NCBI RefSeq assembly: GCF_013394165.1
Contig: NZ_CP041330.1
Coordinates: 186,001 to 250,000 of the forward strand
Source: Pseudoalteromonas sp. Scap06
Lineage (GTDB): Bacteria > Pseudomonadota > Gammaproteobacteria > Enterobacterales > Alteromonadaceae
Direction of reading: 5' to 3'
DNA length: 64,000 bases
This document shows, in pieces, positions 1,035 through 22,190 of this stretch. Each line of letters opens with the position of its first letter. Within the stretch, counting starts at the first letter, position 1. Made by a program: the position numbers and the translations under genes. The notes under the pieces were generated by a model. The model ran no database searches. It had not been told where the DNA came from and worked only from the letters and a program-made list of their open reading frames with translations.

Positions 1035-1700
1035 ATGAAAAATGGAATTTTAGCGTGTGCACTCATGCTATTGTTGAGTGCATGCCAACAGCCTACAGTG
1101 TATATATTTAGTAAAGGTTTATCGGACTCACAGCGCCAGCAGTTAGAGGCCGCACTCAAAACACAATCCCTACCTTACGAATATGTTGAGCATGACATTC
1201 CTCGGGAATTTGGCGTAGCTACTTTACTATTATCAAATGATAGAATTTTACGCCAAGAAACAGAGCAGTTAGCTACTATTATGCAAGGGTTAGGCTATCA
1301 ACCCGAAATTAGCTACACCACACGCGCAAATCACTTTTATGGTGATGGTAATATCGGTTTTTACCTAAAAAATACTAATGCAGACGACGCTTTTACCATG
1401 CCTTCTCGGTTGCGAACAACCCAGTGCGAAAAAGATGAGTTTAATGACCTAGTCGTAACCTTTACTGATCAACATGCTGAGTTCACATTAATCAGCGGCG
1501 CAAAAGTCACATTGAAATGGGAATATTTATACGGCTATTTAGTTATTTACTACAGCAATTATTCACAAACCTACACTCATTCACAGCCATTGGTTAAGAC
1601 TCCTTTTGGCGAAAAACCATCAGACACATATACCATAACAGCTCATGTAAATAAGCCAGGCTGGCTTAATTGCTCAATGCAGGTTGTTTATATGGATTAA
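1035..1700 (+). CDS. Putative lipoprotein of unknown function
   Basis: The ATG at 1035 is preferred over the in-frame GTG at 1029 because a GGGGG ribosome site (1025-1029) sits five bases before it. The first 17 residues (MKNGILACALMLLLSAC) are a lipoprotein signal peptide with lipobox LSAC, so Cys17 should be lipidated. The remaining roughly 205 residues show no domain I can name. The N-terminal part (SDSQRQQLEAALKTQ) resembles the helices of small periplasmic alpha/beta domains, while the C-terminal half is rich in Tyr and Thr and probably beta-structured. It converges on the cyclic-nucleotide-domain gene with only eight bases between stop codons. Confidence 0.7.
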   Translation: MKNGILACALMLLLSACQQPTVYIFSKGLSDSQRQQLEAALKTQSLPYEYVEHDIPREFGVATLLLSNDRILRQETEQLATIMQGLGYQPEISYTTRANHFYGDGNIGFYLKNTNADDAFTMPSRLRTTQCEKDEFNDLVVTFTDQHAEFTLISGAKVTLKWEYLYGYLVIYYSNYSQTYTHSQPLVKTPFGEKPSDTYTITAHVNKPGWLNCSMQVVYMD

Positions 1701-1708
1701 GTTAACTG

Positions 1709-2167
1709 TTAACCGTGCTCTTCTATATGCTCCGAGAGTTTTGCAATGCGCAGGCTCATACCTTCAATAATACGGTCTTTAATTTTTTCGCGTATGACAT
1801 TAGGTAGGCGGGTGAGAGCATCTGCAGTTATAGCCAGTACTATGGCGCTTTCTTTGGCGCGTGCATTAATACTGCGCTCTCGGTTATTAATAAATGCACC
1901 TTCACCAATAAATTCACCAGGTTCTATACTGCCCAGTTCCAGTAGGTGATTGTGTTTAAACACCATTAAAGATCCACTAAGCACAATAAACAGTCGCTTG
2001 TCGTTATCAAACTCTTTAAATAAAAACTGATTTTTATTTATTAAATAAAGTAAACCAAACGACTCAAGCAAAATCTGGCGCTCATTGAGTGTGAATTCTT
2101 TAAAAAAATCTAAGCGATTTATAATTTCCATTTGCTTAAACAAAGGGATGTTTTCAATTAACTTCAT
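1709..2167 (-). CDS. Cyclic-nucleotide-binding-domain protein without a DNA-binding domain
   Basis: A 152-residue single-domain protein. Residues about 15-125 form a CAP_ED/cNMP-binding beta-roll: the DFFKEFTLNERQIL entry helix, the GSLMVF strand, and a phosphate-binding-cassette-like stretch GEFIGEGAFINNRERSINARA, which keeps the GE pair and an Arg. There is no helix-turn-helix after the roll, so it is not a Crp/Fnr transcription factor but a sensor or partner-binding module. It starts 22 bases downstream of glnG on the same strand with no visible terminator, so it is probably the last gene of the glnL-glnG transcript. Whether it binds cAMP, c-di-GMP or nothing cannot be told from the sequence. 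Confidence 0.75.
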   Translation of the reverse strand: MKLIENIPLFKQMEIINRLDFFKEFTLNERQILLESFGLLYLINKNQFLFKEFDNDKRLFIVLSGSLMVFKHNHLLELGSIEPGEFIGEGAFINNRERSINARAKESAIVLAITADALTRLPNVIREKIKDRIIEGMSLRIAKLSEHIEEHG

Positions 2168-2189
2168 GCTTTCTCTATGCTTCTAACAA

Positions 2190-3575
2190 TCAGCTAATAT
2201 TGCGCTCTTTTAATTTTCGGGTCAACGTATTACGACCCCAACCAATTTTTACGGCAGCTTCTTGCTTATGGCCAGAACAATTAGCGAGGGCTGTTTTGAT
2301 TAAGCGGGTTTCTAGCTGGGCTTGAATATCCGGCCAAATATTTTCTTTACCTTGTTTAAATTCTTGATTAAGCCACTGCTGAAATGAATCTAGCCAATCC
2401 CCTTCTTGGGTTGCGGCGGCATTATCAATAATTTCAGGAGGTAAATCTTGCTCGCCAATCAGCTCTCCTGGCGCCATAACGGTTAACCAGCGGCAGGTGT
2501 TTTCAAGTTGGCGAACATTCCCAGGCCAATTAAATAAACACAATTGTTTAATTGCTTTAGGGCTTAATATTTTGCTATCTACTTGCAGGTCTTTTGCACT
2601 TTTATGTAAAAAGTGTAGCGCTAAGCGCTCTATATCTTCGGGACGCTCGCGTAAAGCAGGTAAACGCAGGCGAACCACGTTTAAACGATGAAATAAATCA
2701 TCCCTAAACTTACCTTGCTTTACCAGCTCTTCTAAATTTTGATGGGTAGCAGCAATAATGCGTACATCTACTTTTATACTTTGATGACCCCCCACGCGAT
2801 AAAATTCGCCATCGGCCAATACACGCAATAAGCGGGTTTGTACATCCAGTGGCATATCACCGATTTCATCCAAAAATAAGGTACCGCCATTAGCTTGTTC
2901 AAAGCGGCCTTTACGCACGCTATCAGCCCCGGTAAAAGCGCCTTTTTCGTGGCCAAACAGTTCAGATTCAACTAATTCTTTAGGGATGGCGGCCATATTA
3001 AGGGCTATAAATTGGTTTTCTTTACGCGGGCTGTGGTTATGTAAAGCGCTGGCAACCAACTCTTTACCTGTTCCTGACTCACCGTTGATGAGTACGCTCA
3101 TACTTGATGCTGACAGCTTACCTATAGCACGAAACACTTCCTGCATAGCCGGGGCTTCACCAATAATATGGGCACTTTTGGGGGGCGCGCTTTTACGTTT
3201 GGTTTTTTTAGTTGAATTAGCTCGATACGCACTTTCCACCAGTGCAACCGCTTCATTTAAATCAAACGGCTTGGCCAAATACTCAAATGCGCCTTTTTGG
3301 AATGCATTAACGGCTGAATCAAGGTCTGAGTGAGCGGTCATAATGATCACAGGTAGCCCTGGCGTTTGCTCTGCTATTAGCTCAAGTAATGCCATACCGT
3401 CCATGCCAGGCATTCGTACATCGGAAATTAATACGCTAGGTTGACTAAATTTTAGCGCGTTAAGTACATTTTGCGCATCTGCAAAACTTTCTACTTCAAA
3501 CCCTGCGCGAGTCAGTGCTTTTTCTAGTACAAAGCGAATTGAGGCATCATCATCTACAAGCCAAGCTGTTTTCAT
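2190..3575 (-). CDS. glnG: Nitrogen regulation response regulator NtrC (GlnG)
   Basis: A sigma-54-dependent enhancer-binding activator phosphorylated by NtrB under nitrogen limitation. At 461 residues it is close to the family length of about 469. Domains in order: receiver (1-120) with acidic pocket DDD at 8-10 and phosphoacceptor Asp52 in SDVRMPG; AAA+ domain (about 138-370) with Walker A GESGTGKE at 165-172, the sigma-54 contact loop GAFTGA at 212-217 and the LFLDEIGD Walker B; and a Fis-type helix-turn-helix at the C-terminus (about 430-461, ending TRKLKERNIS). It lies 15 bases after glnL. Likely targets in this window are the two GCAC-N7-GTGC boxes upstream of glnA and glnL. Confidence 0.97.
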   Translation of the reverse strand: MKTAWLVDDDASIRFVLEKALTRAGFEVESFADAQNVLNALKFSQPSVLISDVRMPGMDGMALLELIAEQTPGLPVIIMTAHSDLDSAVNAFQKGAFEYLAKPFDLNEAVALVESAYRANSTKKTKRKSAPPKSAHIIGEAPAMQEVFRAIGKLSASSMSVLINGESGTGKELVASALHNHSPRKENQFIALNMAAIPKELVESELFGHEKGAFTGADSVRKGRFEQANGGTLFLDEIGDMPLDVQTRLLRVLADGEFYRVGGHQSIKVDVRIIAATHQNLEELVKQGKFRDDLFHRLNVVRLRLPALRERPEDIERLALHFLHKSAKDLQVDSKILSPKAIKQLCLFNWPGNVRQLENTCRWLTVMAPGELIGEQDLPPEIIDNAAATQEGDWLDSFQQWLNQEFKQGKENIWPDIQAQLETRLIKTALANCSGHKQEAAVKIGWGRNTLTRKLKERNIS

Positions 3576-15808: not shown

Positions 15809-16840
15809 TTACAGTAAGTCAGTCAGTAATATACCGACACCAAAGCGTTCAATATCGGCGTTATAGTCTATTAAACTCTCACCATAGCCATTAAAGTACT
15901 GCGCATAGCCGCGTACTCTTCCCCATAGAGGGAATGACCAATCAAGCTGAATTGCCCCGCGGTTATCTGAATTTAAATTATTACGAGTCATAAAACTAAA
16001 TTCATGATCGTGAAAGCGATACGCGCCACCAAATTCAAAGTAACCCATGTATTTATAGATATCAGGGTTATCGTCACCTCGTGCATCTAACGGCGCAGGC
16101 TTTTCATTTTCAGGAATGCGGTACCAAGGCTTAAAGCTGAATACAAAGCCGTCATTTTCCCAAATGAAATCGGCATATATACGGTTCCAAGAACGCGAGT
16201 TTGGTTGACTGCGGCCATTTGATTGGTGCGAAATACCAATGGCTATTGCCATTTCATCGCCCCATAAAACGTTTTCAGGGTCTAAGTAATTAATCCAGAA
16301 AATTTCTGGTTCGTAATTAGTTTCACGAAAAGGAGATGAAATATCGTCGTTATATACTTGCCAGTATGACTGCAGTGTAAAGCCAAAAAATATAGCTTGG
16401 TCTGAGTCGGCAAACTCATCATACAAAGGTACTTTAATTGATAACTGATATTTAGCTTCTAGGTTATCGAGAGGGTCGCCATCTTTTTTATCGGTTAATT
16501 CTGCAAATCCATCAAACGGGCGAGTGTTTGGGTTAGACATATATGAAACCGGTAAAATATAATTACGTTTATGCGGCGTAATTACATTACGATTCTTTTT
16601 GCCAACCGCTTCACGGGCTTGGCGTTTATCGATAGCTGTTAGCTGCTTGCTTTCTTCAACTGCAGAGCATTTTTCGCGCAATTGATCGAGGGTTTGCTTA
16701 CCGTCCCCACCGATCACTTCATTTAATATACATTGTTTAACCAGCTCAAGTTCATTGTTTTGCTCGTTTTTTGCTGTTTCTTCAGCAATAACAGCAGTAC
16801 TTAGTAATGTTGAGAGAAGTATCCAGTGGCGCCAACTCAT
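15809..16840 (-). CDS. pldA: Outer-membrane phospholipase A1 (OmpPLA)
   Basis: A calcium-dependent outer-membrane enzyme that hydrolyses phospholipids misplaced in the outer leaflet. Starting at ATG 16840, preceded by AAGGA, gives 343 residues and a proper signal peptide ending AVIAEE; the longer frame from 16903 would bury it. The catalytic triad is complete and spaced as in E. coli: His205, Ser207 and Asn219 in HQSNGRSQPNSRSWN. The product is longer than the E. coli enzyme (289) because of an N-terminal extension of about 60 residues with two Cys (37 and 58) before the barrel, a common form in marine relatives. The C-terminus ends in a hydrophobic beta strand suited to BAM assembly. Confidence 0.93.
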   Translation of the reverse strand: MSWRHWILLSTLLSTAVIAEETAKNEQNNELELVKQCILNEVIGGDGKQTLDQLREKCSAVEESKQLTAIDKRQAREAVGKKNRNVITPHKRNYILPVSYMSNPNTRPFDGFAELTDKKDGDPLDNLEAKYQLSIKVPLYDEFADSDQAIFFGFTLQSYWQVYNDDISSPFRETNYEPEIFWINYLDPENVLWGDEMAIAIGISHQSNGRSQPNSRSWNRIYADFIWENDGFVFSFKPWYRIPENEKPAPLDARGDDNPDIYKYMGYFEFGGAYRFHDHEFSFMTRNNLNSDNRGAIQLDWSFPLWGRVRGYAQYFNGYGESLIDYNADIERFGVGILLTDLL

Positions 16841-16937
16841 TGTAATTCCTTTGTAAGTGAGAGAAGTAACAGATTTGTGGTAATTATAACGCATTTTTAA
16901 CACATATACGGTGAACTTGCCCTGAACTTTAATAAAG

Positions 16938-16966
16938 CAAAAAGAAAAGCGACCTAAGTCGCTTTT
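16938..16966 (-). terminator. Terminator of the dap-like operon
   Basis: Read leftward, a nine-base-pair stem AAAAGCGAC/GTCGCTTTT is followed by a T-rich run. It lies about 60 bases beyond the last gene of the lysine-riboswitch operon and before pldA. A second small palindrome (about 16975-16997, AACTAGC...GCTAGTT) sits between the two. Confidence 0.8.
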
Positions 16967-17024: not shown

Positions 17025-18146
17025 CTAAAGCTCAAAAACGTTTGTAAAAAACTTATAAAGCTCAGTGCCTTGGTTCACACTAGCTGAGGCAAAATGCAAT
17101 ATCGCAATCGCATCAAGATCAAAGCTTAATGTTTGCAGTGGTTGTTCGCTTAGGTAGCGTTCCATTCGCAGTATTTTAGCTATAGGTTCGCCCGCTTTAA
17201 TGTGCCCACCAAGAGGGGCTAAGTATTCAACCATGCCACCCATAGGTGCATAGTAAGCAATATAATCATTTAGTTGGCAGCCATACCTTGTCATCACCTT
17301 TGGCTTGTAGGAGGCATCAACAAATACTTTCTTATGATTTAAATAACTTAAAATACTATTGGCATCGTCTAGTGCAGCGCTTAAATCTATTTTTTCTTGG
17401 CTTCCTAGCTCTACCGTAAAGGCTTCAACTTGTACGTTAAAATTTCGGCCTTGCTGAGCAAGTTGCTCGCTAAGTTGCCACCATGGACAAAAGCTCGCTT
17501 CATCCATTGCCCCATCAAAGTCATTAGGGATCACTAGCACATGGGGAATATTAAAGTAACGGGCACTTTCTGTGGCATATTCAGGACAATATAAGTGCTG
17601 ACTAGAAATAGGGCCAGTGTGTAAATCTAAAACAATATCAGCCTGATGCGCTAGTCTTTGTAAGTTTAGCGCTATGCGTTTACCGGTTGTTAAACGATAG
17701 TCTGGGCCATTAAGTTGCTGCTCAACATCATTAATTAACGCGGTTTTAAATGCTGTTTTTAGAGCTGTATCGTCAGCGTCGCAGTATTGCTTTGCAAACT
17801 GTGATGCAAGCTGATTATTACAGTGATACATACGATTCCAATTAGTCCCCGTAATAGGATCGAATCGGCCAAGCGTAAATTCGCCCGATTTTTGATTACA
17901 GCCAATGGGGTTAGCGTAGGGAACTAAGGTAATGTCACCTTTTAAATTAAGGTTTTTTAGCTGTTCAAGTAGCTGATAAATAACCGCGTTACCTTGTACT
18001 TCGGCGCCATGCATATTAGCTTGTATATACACACTTGGGCCTGTGCCATCGCCCTTTAAACGATAGACAGAAATAGTCAGTGGTAGGCCATTTGCCACTT
18101 CACCAACTACAATATTTTCCTGGCTTATAGCTGTGGTGTTATTCAT
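17025..18146 (-). CDS. AstE/aspartoacylase-family zinc deacylase in the lysine operon
   Basis: A 373-residue member of the succinylglutamate desuccinylase/aspartoacylase family (M14-like zinc hydrolases). Zinc ligands are visible as His46 and Glu49 in ANMHGAEVQGN and His176 in DLHTG; the likely catalytic base is Glu246 in AFTVELGS. The C-terminal 80 residues form a beta-rich domain (YAPMGGMVEYLAPLGGHIKAGEPI) similar to a biotinyl-lipoyl fold, as in COG3608 deacylases. It is the fourth gene after a lysine riboswitch and dapA-, dapD- and lysA-like genes, five bases from lysA. By position it could remove the succinyl group that a DapD-like enzyme adds, a job normally done by DapE. This role is inference; it could also act on another N-acyl amino acid. 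Confidence 0.8.
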   Translation of the reverse strand: MNNTTAISQENIVVGEVANGLPLTISVYRLKGDGTGPSVYIQANMHGAEVQGNAVIYQLLEQLKNLNLKGDITLVPYANPIGCNQKSGEFTLGRFDPITGTNWNRMYHCNNQLASQFAKQYCDADDTALKTAFKTALINDVEQQLNGPDYRLTTGKRIALNLQRLAHQADIVLDLHTGPISSQHLYCPEYATESARYFNIPHVLVIPNDFDGAMDEASFCPWWQLSEQLAQQGRNFNVQVEAFTVELGSQEKIDLSAALDDANSILSYLNHKKVFVDASYKPKVMTRYGCQLNDYIAYYAPMGGMVEYLAPLGGHIKAGEPIAKILRMERYLSEQPLQTLSFDLDAIAILHFASASVNQGTELYKFFTNVFEL

Positions 18147-18151
18147 TTTTA

Positions 18152-19357
18152 TTACCTCAAGTAGTGGCTTGCATCTTCTGCTTGGCGAATACAGTTGATT
18201 TCGCCATGGTGTATAACATATTCACCGGCCAGTTCATGGCACAAAAAGTACGGCATACTTTCGGTAAAACCATAAGCACCGCATTGACTAAACACCAGCC
18301 AGTCGTGTTCATCTAAATCGCCCGGTAATTGGTGCTCCCCTAAGCAATCCAGCGCGGTACATAATGGCCCATATAGGCTCATTGCTTGGTTTGCTGCGTT
18401 TGAATCACGTAATAAACGCGCAGGAAAGTCTTGATTAGTAACCGCAGGGCGCAATAAGTGATTAATACCGCCGCTCATAATTACCTGCTGTTGGCCGTAG
18501 TTTAATTTGCGCTCAACCACCGGTGTGGCGTAGTGGCCGCATTCGCCTACAGCATAGCGACCTAGTTCCATCCACAGCTCTTTAACACCCGCATCGCGTT
18601 TAATCTTTGCAAGGGCTGCTATTAATGCATCCCAGCTTAAAGTCGGGTCATTAAGGGTGTAAGGAATACCTAAACCGCCACCTAAATCTAAAATATTCAG
18701 ATTTATATTTAAGTTATTAGCAAGGACTGTAAGTGGTGTAATCATTTGCGACCACAGATCTGCAAGTTTGTCGCTGCTGAGCATGTTACCCCACTGAAAA
18801 ATATGTAGGCCATCAAAGCTCAATGCTGTGTAGTCTTTAGTATTTAGCGATTGCCATTCATCGCACCCTAAGCCAAATGGAGTAAGGCTATCACCACCAA
18901 GTGGGTTTTTATCACCCTCGGGCCAGCGTAATTGAACACGCAGTAATACTTGCAACTGGCACTGCTGGGCATTGGCTTGTTCGTTTAACCAACGCACCTG
19001 ATTAAGACTTTCTGCCACAAAGGTGCGTACGCCACGTGCAATAAAATGTTTAATTTGTTTTGGGCTTTTAGCAGGGCCCGTGTTGAGCACGCGCTCGCTG
19101 TTAATTCCTTGGGCAAGTACTTGCTCAAGTTCGCCTTTACTTGCAACATCAAAGTTAAAACCAGCGTTATCTAAACTTTGTATCACTTTAGATAGGGGAT
19201 TGGCTTTAACCGCATACCAAAGCTTTACTTCGGTTTGCGCCACTAAGTGCGCAAGGTGCGCATCTAGTGAGTCGAGGTCGTAGACAAAAAATGGAGTATC
19301 GAGTTTACTCGAAAGCTCATCAATAGCGCTTTTAACGGGCGTGCTCAAAAAGGTCAT
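18152..19357 (-). CDS. Diaminopimelate-decarboxylase-like PLP enzyme (LysA family)
   Basis: A fold-III PLP-dependent decarboxylase of 401 residues, the family that includes LysA and carboxynorspermidine decarboxylase. The PLP lysine is Lys51 in YAVKANPLS. The phosphate-binding GGGLGIPY loop, the ELGRY substrate strand, PLCTALD with its Cys, and the CGAYGF motif with the catalytic Tyr are all present. In the lysine pathway it would convert meso-diaminopimelate to lysine. Its start codon overlaps the stop of the dapD-like gene by one base (TAATG), so they are translationally coupled. Carboxynorspermidine decarboxylase is the main alternative, but the lysine riboswitch upstream favours the lysine role. 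Confidence 0.82.
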   Translation of the reverse strand: MTFLSTPVKSAIDELSSKLDTPFFVYDLDSLDAHLAHLVAQTEVKLWYAVKANPLSKVIQSLDNAGFNFDVASKGELEQVLAQGINSERVLNTGPAKSPKQIKHFIARGVRTFVAESLNQVRWLNEQANAQQCQLQVLLRVQLRWPEGDKNPLGGDSLTPFGLGCDEWQSLNTKDYTALSFDGLHIFQWGNMLSSDKLADLWSQMITPLTVLANNLNINLNILDLGGGLGIPYTLNDPTLSWDALIAALAKIKRDAGVKELWMELGRYAVGECGHYATPVVERKLNYGQQQVIMSGGINHLLRPAVTNQDFPARLLRDSNAANQAMSLYGPLCTALDCLGEHQLPGDLDEHDWLVFSQCGAYGFTESMPYFLCHELAGEYVIHHGEINCIRQAEDASHYLR

Positions 19358-20097
19358 TAACGTAAAACCTCTTCAAGCAATAATGACGCGTCACTTTGCT
19401 CGTCCCGGTATTTAACAATTAAGGCACACGACATACTCAAGCCTTGAGCACGCGCCCAGTCGTTTGACGCAGGGCGAGAGCCTGGGATCACAATCGCGTA
19501 TTCAGGGATTGCTTCGCCTTTATCAAGCTGACGCTCATTAACGCAGTCATAAACAGGGATGGTTGCAGATAAGCGAACACCTGGGGCTAGTACCGCGCCT
19601 TTTTTAACTACCACGCCTTCAACAATCACACAGCCTGCACCAATGAATGCATCGTCTTCTATGACCACAGGGCTTGCGCCAATGGGCTCAAGTACCCCGC
19701 CTAATTGTACCGCGGCGCTCAAATGAACATTTTTACCCACTTGCGCACATGAGCCAACCAATGCGTGGCTATCTACCATAGTGCCCTCGTCAATAAAGGC
19801 GCCAATATTTACGTACGCAGGTGGCATAATAATAGTGCCTTTGGCAATATGTGCACCACGGCGCACACTTGAACCACCTGGCACCATGCGAACGCCTGCT
19901 GTGGCTTCAAAGCATTGCGGCGCTAGATTATGTTTATCTACAAAGCCACCAGGAAACTCCATGTTAGTGCCGTTTTTAAATGCCTCTAAAATGCCTTGCT
20001 TTACTTCTACGTTAGCGTGCCATTGGCCGTTTTCGTCTTGTGTTGCTGCGCGAACTGCGCCCGTTTCTAAATTATTTAATAGTTCTAACCAGCTCAT
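19357..20097 (-). CDS. Tetrahydrodipicolinate N-succinyltransferase-like enzyme (DapD family)
   Basis: A 246-residue left-handed beta-helix acyltransferase. From about residue 60 it shows hexapeptide repeats and the DapD signature: MVPGGSSVRRGAHIAKG, YVNIGAFIDEGTMVDSHALVGSCAQVG, and VQLGGVLEPIGASPVVIEDDAFIGAGC. It would acylate the amine of tetrahydrodipicolinate using succinyl-CoA. It is shorter than the usual gammaproteobacterial DapD (about 274 residues) at the N-terminus. It sits between dapA-like (15-base gap) and lysA-like genes in a riboswitch-controlled operon. I cannot tell succinyl-CoA from acetyl-CoA use by eye. Confidence 0.85.
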   Translation of the reverse strand: MSWLELLNNLETGAVRAATQDENGQWHANVEVKQGILEAFKNGTNMEFPGGFVDKHNLAPQCFEATAGVRMVPGGSSVRRGAHIAKGTIIMPPAYVNIGAFIDEGTMVDSHALVGSCAQVGKNVHLSAAVQLGGVLEPIGASPVVIEDDAFIGAGCVIVEGVVVKKGAVLAPGVRLSATIPVYDCVNERQLDKGEAIPEYAIVIPGSRPASNDWARAQGLSMSCALIVKYRDEQSDASLLLEEVLR

Positions 20098-20112
20098 TAT
20101 AAAAACCTGTAT

Positions 20113-20997
20113 TTAATGCCAAGATAAAATGGTGTTGTTTGCCGATGAAATGTCATCTGTGTGTGTCAGCTCAAGGTGTGTTAAAGGTGGACGTAAATGC
20201 GGACTGCTAATACGCCCTTGTAAATGCATTAACACTTTGACTGGGATAGGGTTTGCTACTGAAAATAAACTATTGATAGCGCTAGACCATTGGACAAAAA
20301 GATTAGGATGTTGGCCGCTTAAACTGCGCTTTACAAACTCATGGGTTTGCACTGGCCATGCATTGGCTGCAACCGACACTAAACCTTTTGCACCTGCTTG
20401 GGCAAAATAAGGCATGAGGGCATCGTCACCACTAAAAATGGCTAGTTCAGGCGCTGCTTGTCGATAGGCTTCAAATTGAGAAATACAGCCACTGGCTTCT
20501 TTGAGTGCCCATAAATTTTTATGTTGTTTGAGGTTTTCAATGGTTGCAATGGGAATGCTAACCGCACTACGTCCTGGTACGTTATAAAGCATACAAGGAT
20601 GAGAACTGGCATTGAGCAGGCTTTCAAACCAATGGGTTTGCCCCACTGCACCGGGTTTGGCGTACAAAGGCGAGCCAAGTAAAAAACCATGAATAGGCAG
20701 TTGGTTGCAGTAGTTAACCCATTCAAGCTGCTGCTTTAAGTTACTACCACCGACTGCGACCATAAGCGGGACGCTCGGCTCTAATTGGCAGACATGCTCT
20801 ACGATGGCTTGCTGCTCTTTTAGGGTCAGGGCTAACCCTTCGCCAGTGCTACCAAGTAATAAAATGCCGTTGTTAGCGGCTTCTTGTTCGGCCACCAAGG
20901 TGTCTAAGGTTGCGTAATCAACTAGGCCATTTTGATCAAATGGGGTGATCAGCGCAGTCCATAAATGGAAATTGTTAATATTGAAGTTGTTGATCAT
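20113..20997 (-). CDS. dapA: 4-hydroxy-tetrahydrodipicolinate synthase (DapA family)
   Basis: A class I aldolase-fold enzyme of 294 residues that condenses pyruvate with aspartate semialdehyde in lysine and diaminopimelate synthesis. The catalytic Schiff-base Lys is in LWALKEASG, the Tyr/Arg pair in YNVPGRS and the Tyr donor in SPLYAKPG. The substrate loop reads GSTGEGLAL where the usual form is GTTGE, a conservative Thr-to-Ser change. It is the first gene after the lysine riboswitch, with a leader of about 130 bases between the aptamer and the ATG. I expect another dapA elsewhere in the genome, since a cell with a single copy usually has it outside such an operon, but this cannot be seen here. 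Confidence 0.88.
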   Translation of the reverse strand: MINNFNINNFHLWTALITPFDQNGLVDYATLDTLVAEQEAANNGILLLGSTGEGLALTLKEQQAIVEHVCQLEPSVPLMVAVGGSNLKQQLEWVNYCNQLPIHGFLLGSPLYAKPGAVGQTHWFESLLNASSHPCMLYNVPGRSAVSIPIATIENLKQHKNLWALKEASGCISQFEAYRQAAPELAIFSGDDALMPYFAQAGAKGLVSVAANAWPVQTHEFVKRSLSGQHPNLFVQWSSAINSLFSVANPIPVKVLMHLQGRISSPHLRPPLTHLELTHTDDISSANNTILSWH

Positions 20998-21128
20998 CTC
21001 TCACGAACTTATAGGGCATTCGTCGAGTTATTGGCGGGTATTTAGGGTGCCTGACTCTTTGAATGTATTTATAATTCGAAGAGCGAATGGGCTTAAATAA
21101 TAGGGCGCACGGCCTTATTATACTAAGA

Positions 21129-21300
21129 CCAGAAGCTCTCCACCAAATATGTTATTGGTGACAGTCGCTAGGATTCAACCTAGTCGCCCGAAGTAACCTT
21201 TCACAAAAAAGTGTTACCTCTCGGCGTTAATTCCCCTCACGTATGCTCAATGGAGTTTGCGCTCCTAACATACGCTACCTGAATAACGCACCTCTTCCAG
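21129..21300 (-). ncRNA. Lysine riboswitch (L-box)
   Basis: Read leftward, the strand carries the L-box consensus in order: GGAAGAGGTGCG, GTTAGGAGC, TGAGGGGAATTAACGCCGAG, a variable hairpin (GGTAAC...GTTACT-like), GGGCGACTAGG with its partner CCTAGCGACTGTCACC, and GGTGGAGAGCTTCTGG. P1 forms from CTGGAAG (21294-21300) with CTTCTGG (21129-21135), including two wobble pairs. It sits in the 5' leader of the dapA-dapD-lysA-deacylase operon. Downstream (about 21085-21125) a weak stem AATAAGGC...GCCCTATT followed by ATTT might be the expression platform, but there is no strong terminator, so translational control is also possible. Confidence 0.93.
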
Positions 21301-21491: not shown

Positions 21492-22190
21492 ATGGAAAAA
21501 TTTAGCGATATTTATAAGCGTGCAGTGGAGCGAAAGGGCTCTGAAAAAATGCTTAAATTGTTACTCTCAAAACCTTTATCAACAAAGCAACTCGTCACAT
21601 TAAGTGATGATGATTGGCTAGAAGAATTTACTCGGAAAGTTTTTCAAAGTGGTTTTTATTGGTCGGTGATCAACAGTAAGTGGGCCGGATTTAGAGAGGT
21701 TTTCTGGGATTTCAGTGTTGAAAAATTATTGATGATGCCACCAGACATTTTAGAACAAAAAGCCAGTGACGAACGGATTGTGCGCAATTATAAAAAAGTA
21801 AAAACCATTACTGATAATGCGTATATGATCCACGAAGTTGCAGAGCAACACGGCAGCTTTAGTGAGTTTATTGCTAACTGGCCAAGTGAAGATATTATTG
21901 GCTTGTGGGCGTATTTAAAAAAGCATGGTGCGAGGCTGGGTGGTAATACCGGCCCTTATGCGCTGCGCGCCTTAGGAAAAGATACTTTTTTACTTTCAAG
22001 AGACGTAGAAAGCTATTTGCGTGCACATAAAATTATAGATGGTGGATTGCAAACTAAAAAGTCACTAAGTGCGGCGCAGGCATTCTTTAATGAACTGCAG
22101 CAGCAAAGCGGCTTAAGCATGCAAGAGCTAAGCTTAATTGTCGCTTATGGTGTCGGCGACAATCGCGTAGGTATCAGCCAAAAACAATAG
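21492..22190 (+). CDS. Tag-like HhH-GPD DNA-3-methyladenine glycosylase
   Basis: A 232-residue protein of the 3-methyladenine DNA glycosylase I (Tag) fold. Helical signatures are EEFTRKVFQSGFYWSVINSKWAGFREVFWDF and the helix-hairpin-helix area GLWAYLKKHGARLGGNTGPYALRALGKDTFLLSRDVESYL. The zinc-snap residues of E. coli Tag (Cys near the N-terminus, C-terminal His and Cys) are absent, so it is a divergent branch whose base specificity is open. It ends eight bases before selO, so the two are likely one operon, divergent from the riboswitch operon. Confidence 0.75.
   Translation: MEKFSDIYKRAVERKGSEKMLKLLLSKPLSTKQLVTLSDDDWLEEFTRKVFQSGFYWSVINSKWAGFREVFWDFSVEKLLMMPPDILEQKASDERIVRNYKKVKTITDNAYMIHEVAEQHGSFSEFIANWPSEDIIGLWAYLKKHGARLGGNTGPYALRALGKDTFLLSRDVESYLRAHKIIDGGLQTKKSLSAAQAFFNELQQQSGLSMQELSLIVAYGVGDNRVGISQKQ

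Follow-up and report, generated by a model that had tools for sequence, protein, structure and literature searches.

To our knowledge, the diaminopimelate (DAP) routes to lysine all end in meso-DAP, which is shared with peptidoglycan. The closest described gene arrangement is found in Table 1 of PMC5584792, which, in the part of that source available to us, lists a Pseudoalteromonas operon dapA-dapD-lysA-hypothetical1-hypothetical2 under a lysine riboswitch, stated only in that genus, along with dapD behind a riboswitch in Colwellia psychrerythraea and the gene order lysC-dapB-dapA-dapD-lysA in Bacteriovorax marinus; the available part of PMC3766115 contains no dapD or lysA. Here, we analyze a 64,000-nucleotide stretch of Pseudoalteromonas sp. 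Scap06 (hereafter the window, C1:186001-250000 of a 4.13 Mb genome in two contigs that is rated 100% complete), which carries such an operon, comprising the genes that we denote dapA2, dapD2 and lysA2 followed by a gene for a zinc deacylase of the AstE/AspA family. This riboswitch operon is real, conserved and already in print, and the variant of lysine biosynthesis that it would encode is probably new. We propose from sequence that it forms a lysine-only branch of the succinylase pathway that runs via N2-succinyl-L-lysine and is switched by the riboswitch, a reading to which we assign a probability of roughly 0.47, i.e., not quite even odds.

In the proposed scheme, the riboswitch would turn the operon on at low lysine, DapA2 would feed the pathway, the housekeeping DapB would make tetrahydrodipicolinate, and DapD2 would succinylate this compound, with the roles of DapA2 and DapD2 suggested by family-level homology. 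An aminotransferase, which in this genome would be a housekeeping enzyme, would then give N-succinyl-LL-DAP, in which one end is free and of L configuration while the other amine is acylated. LysA2, which has kept the residues that read the distal carboxylate and lost the one that reads the distal amine, would decarboxylate the free L-end to N2-succinyl-L-lysine, and the zinc deacylase would remove succinate to release L-lysine. DapE, DapF and meso-DAP would thus be bypassed, such that lysine could shut off its own supply without depriving the cell wall of DAP, the wall being served by the housekeeping dapD and dapE. The order of the genes matches the order of the steps in this scheme. Each enzyme of the operon is homologous to its family, and it is their substrates that we infer.

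LysA2 is a 401-residue fold-III pyridoxal 5′-phosphate (PLP)-dependent decarboxylase (18152..19357, minus strand) that we predict to act on N-succinyl-LL-DAP, based on fixed changes in its active site, on its enzyme relatives and on gene linkage. It scores below the cut-off of the LysA equivalog TIGR01048 (187 vs 297.9 bits), as well as below those of the exosortase-associated decarboxylase model TIGR03099 (204 vs 478) and of FslC (48.7 vs 500), and its best sequence matches in the PDB are BtrK (119 bits) and 6KNH (110 bits; SbnH by entry title), followed by the best DAP decarboxylase (98.6 bits). When 338 LysA2 rows (98 from the loci and 240 from databases) were aligned and compared with 38 canonical LysA rows, position 334 was found to be Thr in all 338 of the former and Glu in all 38 of the latter. 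The catalytic Lys51 and Cys333 and the two distal-carboxylate arginines, Arg267 and Arg303, are invariant, both arginines being present in LysA2 and canonical rows alike, whereas Phe187-Gln188-Trp189 is fixed in LysA2 where the canonical rows have His-Ile-Gly, His300 stands in place of Asp, and the lid motif HPYISTG, present in the three canonical rows printed, is missing from the eight LysA2 rows printed. Gln188, Trp189 and His300 are candidates for contacting the succinyl carboxylate of the predicted substrate. According to the part of PMC8277567 available, Glu315 of the Thermotoga DAP decarboxylase reads the distal amino group, Arg249 and Arg285 hold the distal carboxylate, and most DAP activity is lost in the E315T variant. 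We equate Glu315 with LysA2 position 334 by motif and spacing, because a C-E motif in the former corresponds to C-T in the latter and 36 residues separate the two arginines in both. Since LysA2 would therefore have lost the Glu that reads DAP, the substrate of the deacylase likely shifts from N-succinyl-DAP to N2-succinyl-lysine. A 100/100 branch splits 27 LysA2 rows from the 38 canonical rows in the tree, in which the branch to BtrK is too long for its placement to be informative. The AlphaFold model of LysA2 (mean predicted local distance difference test score, pLDDT, of 89) is equally close to DAP decarboxylase, BtrK and SbnH, and fold comparison is thus a tie that does not separate DAP decarboxylases from acyl-substrate decarboxylases.

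The deacylase (373 residues; 17025..18146, minus strand) matches PF24827 (AstE_AspA_cat) with 104 bits against a cut-off of 25, with no match to DapE (M20) or AstE models at an E-value of 0.001 and otherwise only a sub-threshold M14 match, which bears out the statement of a first-pass annotation of this DNA that the protein is unrelated to the M20 peptidase DapE. His46, Glu49, His176, Arg105 and Glu246, which we take to be catalytic residues, with His46 as a zinc ligand, are present in 92/92 operon deacylases. The protein is an ortholog of the structures 3FMC and 3LWU, and its closest relative of known function among solved structures is CphZ, at approximately 22% identity. CphZ splits beta-Asp-Arg, in which a basic amino acid carries an amino-succinyl group, and CphZ-type relatives hydrolyze beta-Asp-Lys. 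The operon deacylase is kin to CphZ in fold and sequence, and by analogy with CphZ, together with the gene order, we predict that it is an N2-succinyl-L-lysine desuccinylase. Comparison of operon, lysC-linked and stand-alone deacylases gave five group-specific positions (45, 60, 204, 299 and 331), of which position 45 adjoins His46; as none of the five is catalytic, the group-specific residues give no evidence of a change of substrate between the groups.

The association of these genes was followed by a contig scan with the deacylase, which gave 80 named loci, the best 80 of 154 relatives, from Pseudoalteromonas, Colwellia, Thalassotalea and one Colwelliaceae bin. The best named kin of the window locus are from Pseudoalteromonas, the top locus being 94% identical in the deacylase. 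Among these 80 loci, dapD2-lysA2-deacylase occurs in the same order on the same strand in 79, with dapA2 upstream in 75, and the sole exception to this order, L100, contains only the deacylase of these genes. Of the 22 loci in this set that were scanned with Rfam, 21 gave a riboswitch match and L100 gave none; in three loci without dapA2 (L092, L097 and L102), the riboswitch precedes the dapD2 match by 132, 152 and 522 bases. The association is therefore conserved, beyond chance, as the first-pass annotation had thought worth looking for in related genomes.

Within the window, the lysine riboswitch aptamer (L-box, RF00168; 21125..21304, minus strand) scores 102.8 bits (gathering threshold, 30 bits), with model positions 1-182 of 182 aligned. 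It is followed by dapA2, a 4-hydroxy-tetrahydrodipicolinate synthase paralog of 294 residues (20113..20997, minus strand; TIGR00674 260 bits, above the cut-off of 206), and by dapD2, a short tetrahydrodipicolinate N-succinyltransferase paralog of 246 residues (19357..20097, minus strand; NF008808 293 bits, above the cut-off of 204). DapD2 falls below the cut-off of TIGR00965 (182 vs 375 bits), and its score with the acetyl-form model TIGR03532 (101 bits) is below that with NF008808. All four genes point leftward and are separated by 15, −1 and 5 bases, and a terminator-like hairpin with a T run (16945..16966, minus strand; a pattern match) lies 3′ of the deacylase gene; as such patterns are frequent by chance in this region (3 found vs 5.4 expected), the evidence here is the position of the hairpin and not the count. 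The first-pass annotation was right about the riboswitch, the four genes with their coordinates and gaps, and the trailing terminator-like element, and its Thr-to-Ser change in the DapA motif is also real, as GSTGE, a variant of GTTGE, is found in the window copy and in all ten of the operon relatives printed. Outside the operon, a phospholipase A1 (PldA-like) gene lies downstream (15809-16903, minus strand) and is a neighbor in many Pseudoalteromonas loci. The divergent neighbor on the other side encodes a Tag-like DNA glycosylase homolog (21492-22190, plus strand; Adenine_glyco 57 bits, Tag model 37 vs a cut-off of 232.5), and lies beside the operon in some, but not all, Pseudoalteromonas loci.

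Elsewhere in the same genome, we find a canonical dapE (C1:1486984; 556 bits vs a cut-off of 361.8) and a second dapE-like gene (G000:C1:1051243-1052346; 361.9 bits vs the same cut-off, and NF009557 395.6 vs 284), a canonical dapD (385 bits), and a canonical lysA (538 bits), the next open reading frame downstream of which, on the same strand, resembles DapF by eye. The window copy of DapA tops the genome with its 260 bits, the next one above cut-off being on contig 2 (213 bits), and the true AstE is a separate gene (NF003706 428 bits vs 170), such that the window deacylase is not needed as a succinylglutamate enzyme. As canonical dapE, dapD, lysA and AstE are all present elsewhere, the operon is, as judged from these matches, an added gene set that replaces none of them. 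These results rule out the deacylase as the arginine-catabolic AstE, and also as a substitute for an absent dapE in this genome, which is where the first-pass annotation, in placing the deacylase in lieu of dapE and looking to a missing dapE for support, fails; what holds is its view that the set is paralogous and under lysine control and includes an acylation gene of dapD type.

For the wider distribution, we searched 394 genomes from the order (deacylase threshold E 1e-60, LysA2 threshold E 1e-70), and found the deacylase in 65 and LysA2 in 21. The deacylase accompanies LysA2 in 19 of the 21; the two exceptions are G165, in which the contig stops inside lysA2, and G380. Of the 65 deacylase neighborhoods, 40 were compared with the operon proteins and the riboswitch 3′ motif, with open reading frames read by eye in 13, and 15 of the 40 contain dapD2-lysA2-deacylase. 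All seven loci of family f16 carry dapA2 as well, with the motif approximately 1.3-1.7 kb further upstream, and in those f16 loci that were read (L151 and L152), as in L209, an aspartokinase gene lies between the motif and dapA2; in L151 this is supported by models (Rfam riboswitch at 3061-3235, lysC NF006570 657 bits), and in L152 and L209 by eye. G029 has the order dapB-like-dapD2-lysA2-deacylase, with dapB at 106.7 bits against a cut-off of 122. In a second sample of 369 genomes from the class (LysA2 threshold E 1e-75), LysA2 was found in the window's genome and three others, all from family f76, in which Rfam riboswitches precede lysC-dapB-dapA-dapD-lysA2 (L244, L245 and L246; the lysC frame is partial in L244, and dapB, at 95 bits, is below cut-off in L246). 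A class-I aminotransferase gene closes the operon in L246; in L245 it lies behind its own riboswitch, giving two lysine riboswitches within 1.8 kb (1470-3217), the other before the five-gene operon; and in L244 an asd-like gene and the aminotransferase gene are located beyond the riboswitch. The f76 genes were in part scanned with models and otherwise read by eye, and all aminotransferase model scores are below cut-off. Database relatives of LysA2 type include proteins named Halobacteriovorax and Bacteriovorax. We note two further observations on LysA-like genes. In the one-contig genome G380, a dapD2-lysA2 pair (L208) without a riboswitch lies some kilobases from transposase-like open reading frames (by eye), and may have been acquired by transfer. 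In addition, an extra LysA-like gene (214-261 bits) with one stop codon inside the match occurs at G079:C9, G152:C123, G016:C32, G234:C1:666568 and G134:C1:4098534, representing either a decayed gene or a match that overruns the gene end.

Several of these data weigh against a lysine-only branch. Some genomes have a riboswitch, lysC and the deacylase without LysA2: in all ten loci of genus g23 (family f6; probably Shewanella, given that 3FMC and 3LWU, the orthologous structures, are from that genus) and in G078, the motif lies approximately 1.5 kb upstream of the deacylase and the other three operon genes are absent. In L154 (5789-8563), models identify both riboswitch and lysC, and there is a one-base overlap between the end of lysC and the start of the deacylase gene; L163 and L157, with open reading frames read by eye, likewise have lysC and the deacylase together with the riboswitch or its 3′ motif. 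In the remaining 14 of the 40 neighborhoods, that of G072 among them, none of the other three genes lies near the deacylase. Conversely, no deacylase is found in the f76 LysA2 operons, within the stretches read, nor in G380 (no match at 1e-60), Rfam finds no riboswitch in the LysA2 operons L149, L170 and L208, and the LysA2 operon L183 is without the riboswitch 3′ motif. The housekeeping genes are also retained: canonical lysA is present in 28 of 29 genomes checked, including 20 of 21 LysA2 carriers, with no clean case of an operon genome clearly without it among the 29, and dapE scores above cut-off in 78 of 80 genomes (19/21 LysA2 carriers and 59/59 others). Finally, the Thermotoga E315T mutant is, in the available part of PMC8277567, still D-preferring. 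The simplest explanation of the loci without LysA2 would be that the deacylase works on the single acylated intermediate of the standard pathway, as a second N-succinyl-LL-DAP desuccinylase, with DapF epimerizing the product, LysA2 an ordinary meso-DAP decarboxylase, and the operon boosting flux at low lysine. This is the DapE analog of the first-pass annotation, which is weakened by the conserved dapE, intact in the window's genome, and yet remains the main rival owing to these loci. It also draws on G029 and G380, the only two of the 80 genomes without dapE above cut-off, both of which are LysA2 carriers, but G029, which has the deacylase, is 92% complete, and G380 lacks both genes, and we thus treat this dapE loss as suggestive and not as proof. 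Considering also that no LysA2 row has the Glu that reads the amine, and that the closest functionally characterized relative of the deacylase acts on dipeptides of basic amino acids, we regard a DapE analog as unlikely.

The same scattered deacylase loci, whether they have just lysC beside the deacylase or none of the other three operon genes in the vicinity, would also suit a lysine-salvage enzyme for N2-acyl-lysines or beta-Asp-Lys, the latter being a substrate of CphZ-type relatives, that is merely co-regulated with a paralogous lysine set; this would leave the fixed LysA2 changes and the gene order of 79 of the 80 loci unexplained, and appears improbable. Neither dapE nor dapF was seen in 11 LysA2 operons read by eye. 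This is only weak support for a lysine-only branch, because ordinary riboswitch operons often lack them too, as in the Lactobacillus operons with neither gene in the available Table 1 of PMC5584792, where Thermotoga operons have dapF and an amidohydrolase. The missing dapF would also fit direct decarboxylation of LL-DAP by LysA2 after deacylation by DapE or by the deacylase, with only DapF bypassed, as would the absence of the canonical lid motif and the fact that the best PDB sequence matches of LysA2 act on L-centers. With a free distal amine, however, an acidic reader (Glu or Asp) would be expected from the available part of PMC8277567, whereas all LysA2 rows have Thr, and we consider this quite improbable. 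That LysA2 falls under the LysA equivalog cut-off could, lastly, mean that the unit makes another product under lysine control, such as an acylated or decarboxylated diamine, which is quite improbable given that the f76 sister operons carry lysC, dapB-like, dapA, dapD and lysA2 genes behind lysine riboswitches, and that no tailoring or export gene lies within the window's operon.

We therefore favor, tentatively and at somewhat below even odds, an as yet undescribed route to lysine that would be used by marine Gammaproteobacteria and, judging from the kinship of the decarboxylase, also by predators of the Bacteriovorax type. In this variant, a dedicated decarboxylase would convert N-succinyl-LL-DAP to N2-succinyl-L-lysine and a dedicated desuccinylase would release lysine from it, with no need for DapE, DapF or meso-DAP, and the riboswitch would uncouple the route from wall DAP. 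If true, this would add another pathway variant and explain the second dapD-lysA set under a lysine riboswitch, it would suggest a function for the putatively titled structures 3FMC and 3LWU, and it would mean that many database proteins named diaminopimelate decarboxylase are misnamed. We found no proposal of succinyl-lysine as a lysine precursor among the open-licence papers searched, which does not imply its absence from print.

Compared with the listing in PMC5584792, as far as that source is available, the operon and riboswitch are the same, but there the later genes are hypothetical, lysA is ordinary and no pathway is proposed; furthermore, the three-gene core, limited there to one genus, is found here in Colwellia and Thalassotalea as well. 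The proposed route shares its first acyl step (DapD family) and its pathway logic with the succinylase branch (DapD, DapC, DapE, DapF and LysA), and differs from it in an operon without dapE or dapF, a changed distal site in the decarboxylase, and a deacylase of the AstE/AspA fold. LysA2 shares with the meso-DAP decarboxylase LysA (TIGR01048; 2YXX and 1KO0) the fold, Lys51, Cys333 and both distal-carboxylate arginines, and differs in the Glu to Thr change, in altered lid and PLP-stacking residues, and in lying on the opposite side of the 100/100 branch. With the acyl-substrate decarboxylases BtrK and SbnH, which like FigC/FslC act on L-amino-acid substrates according to the available part of PMC7857480, it has the C-T at the specificity loop in common; its sequence similarity to BtrK, SbnH and FigC/FslC is low, however, it retains the distal-carboxylate Arg of DAP decarboxylase, and it remains below the FslC and TIGR03099 cut-offs. 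The deacylase, for its part, is distant from the cyanophycin dipeptide hydrolase CphZ (8EIN and 8EIP) and stands here in a lysine-synthesis gene context, while for its Shewanella orthologs 3FMC (SAMA_0604) and 3LWU the entry titles give only "putative succinylglutamate desuccinylase/aspartoacylase".

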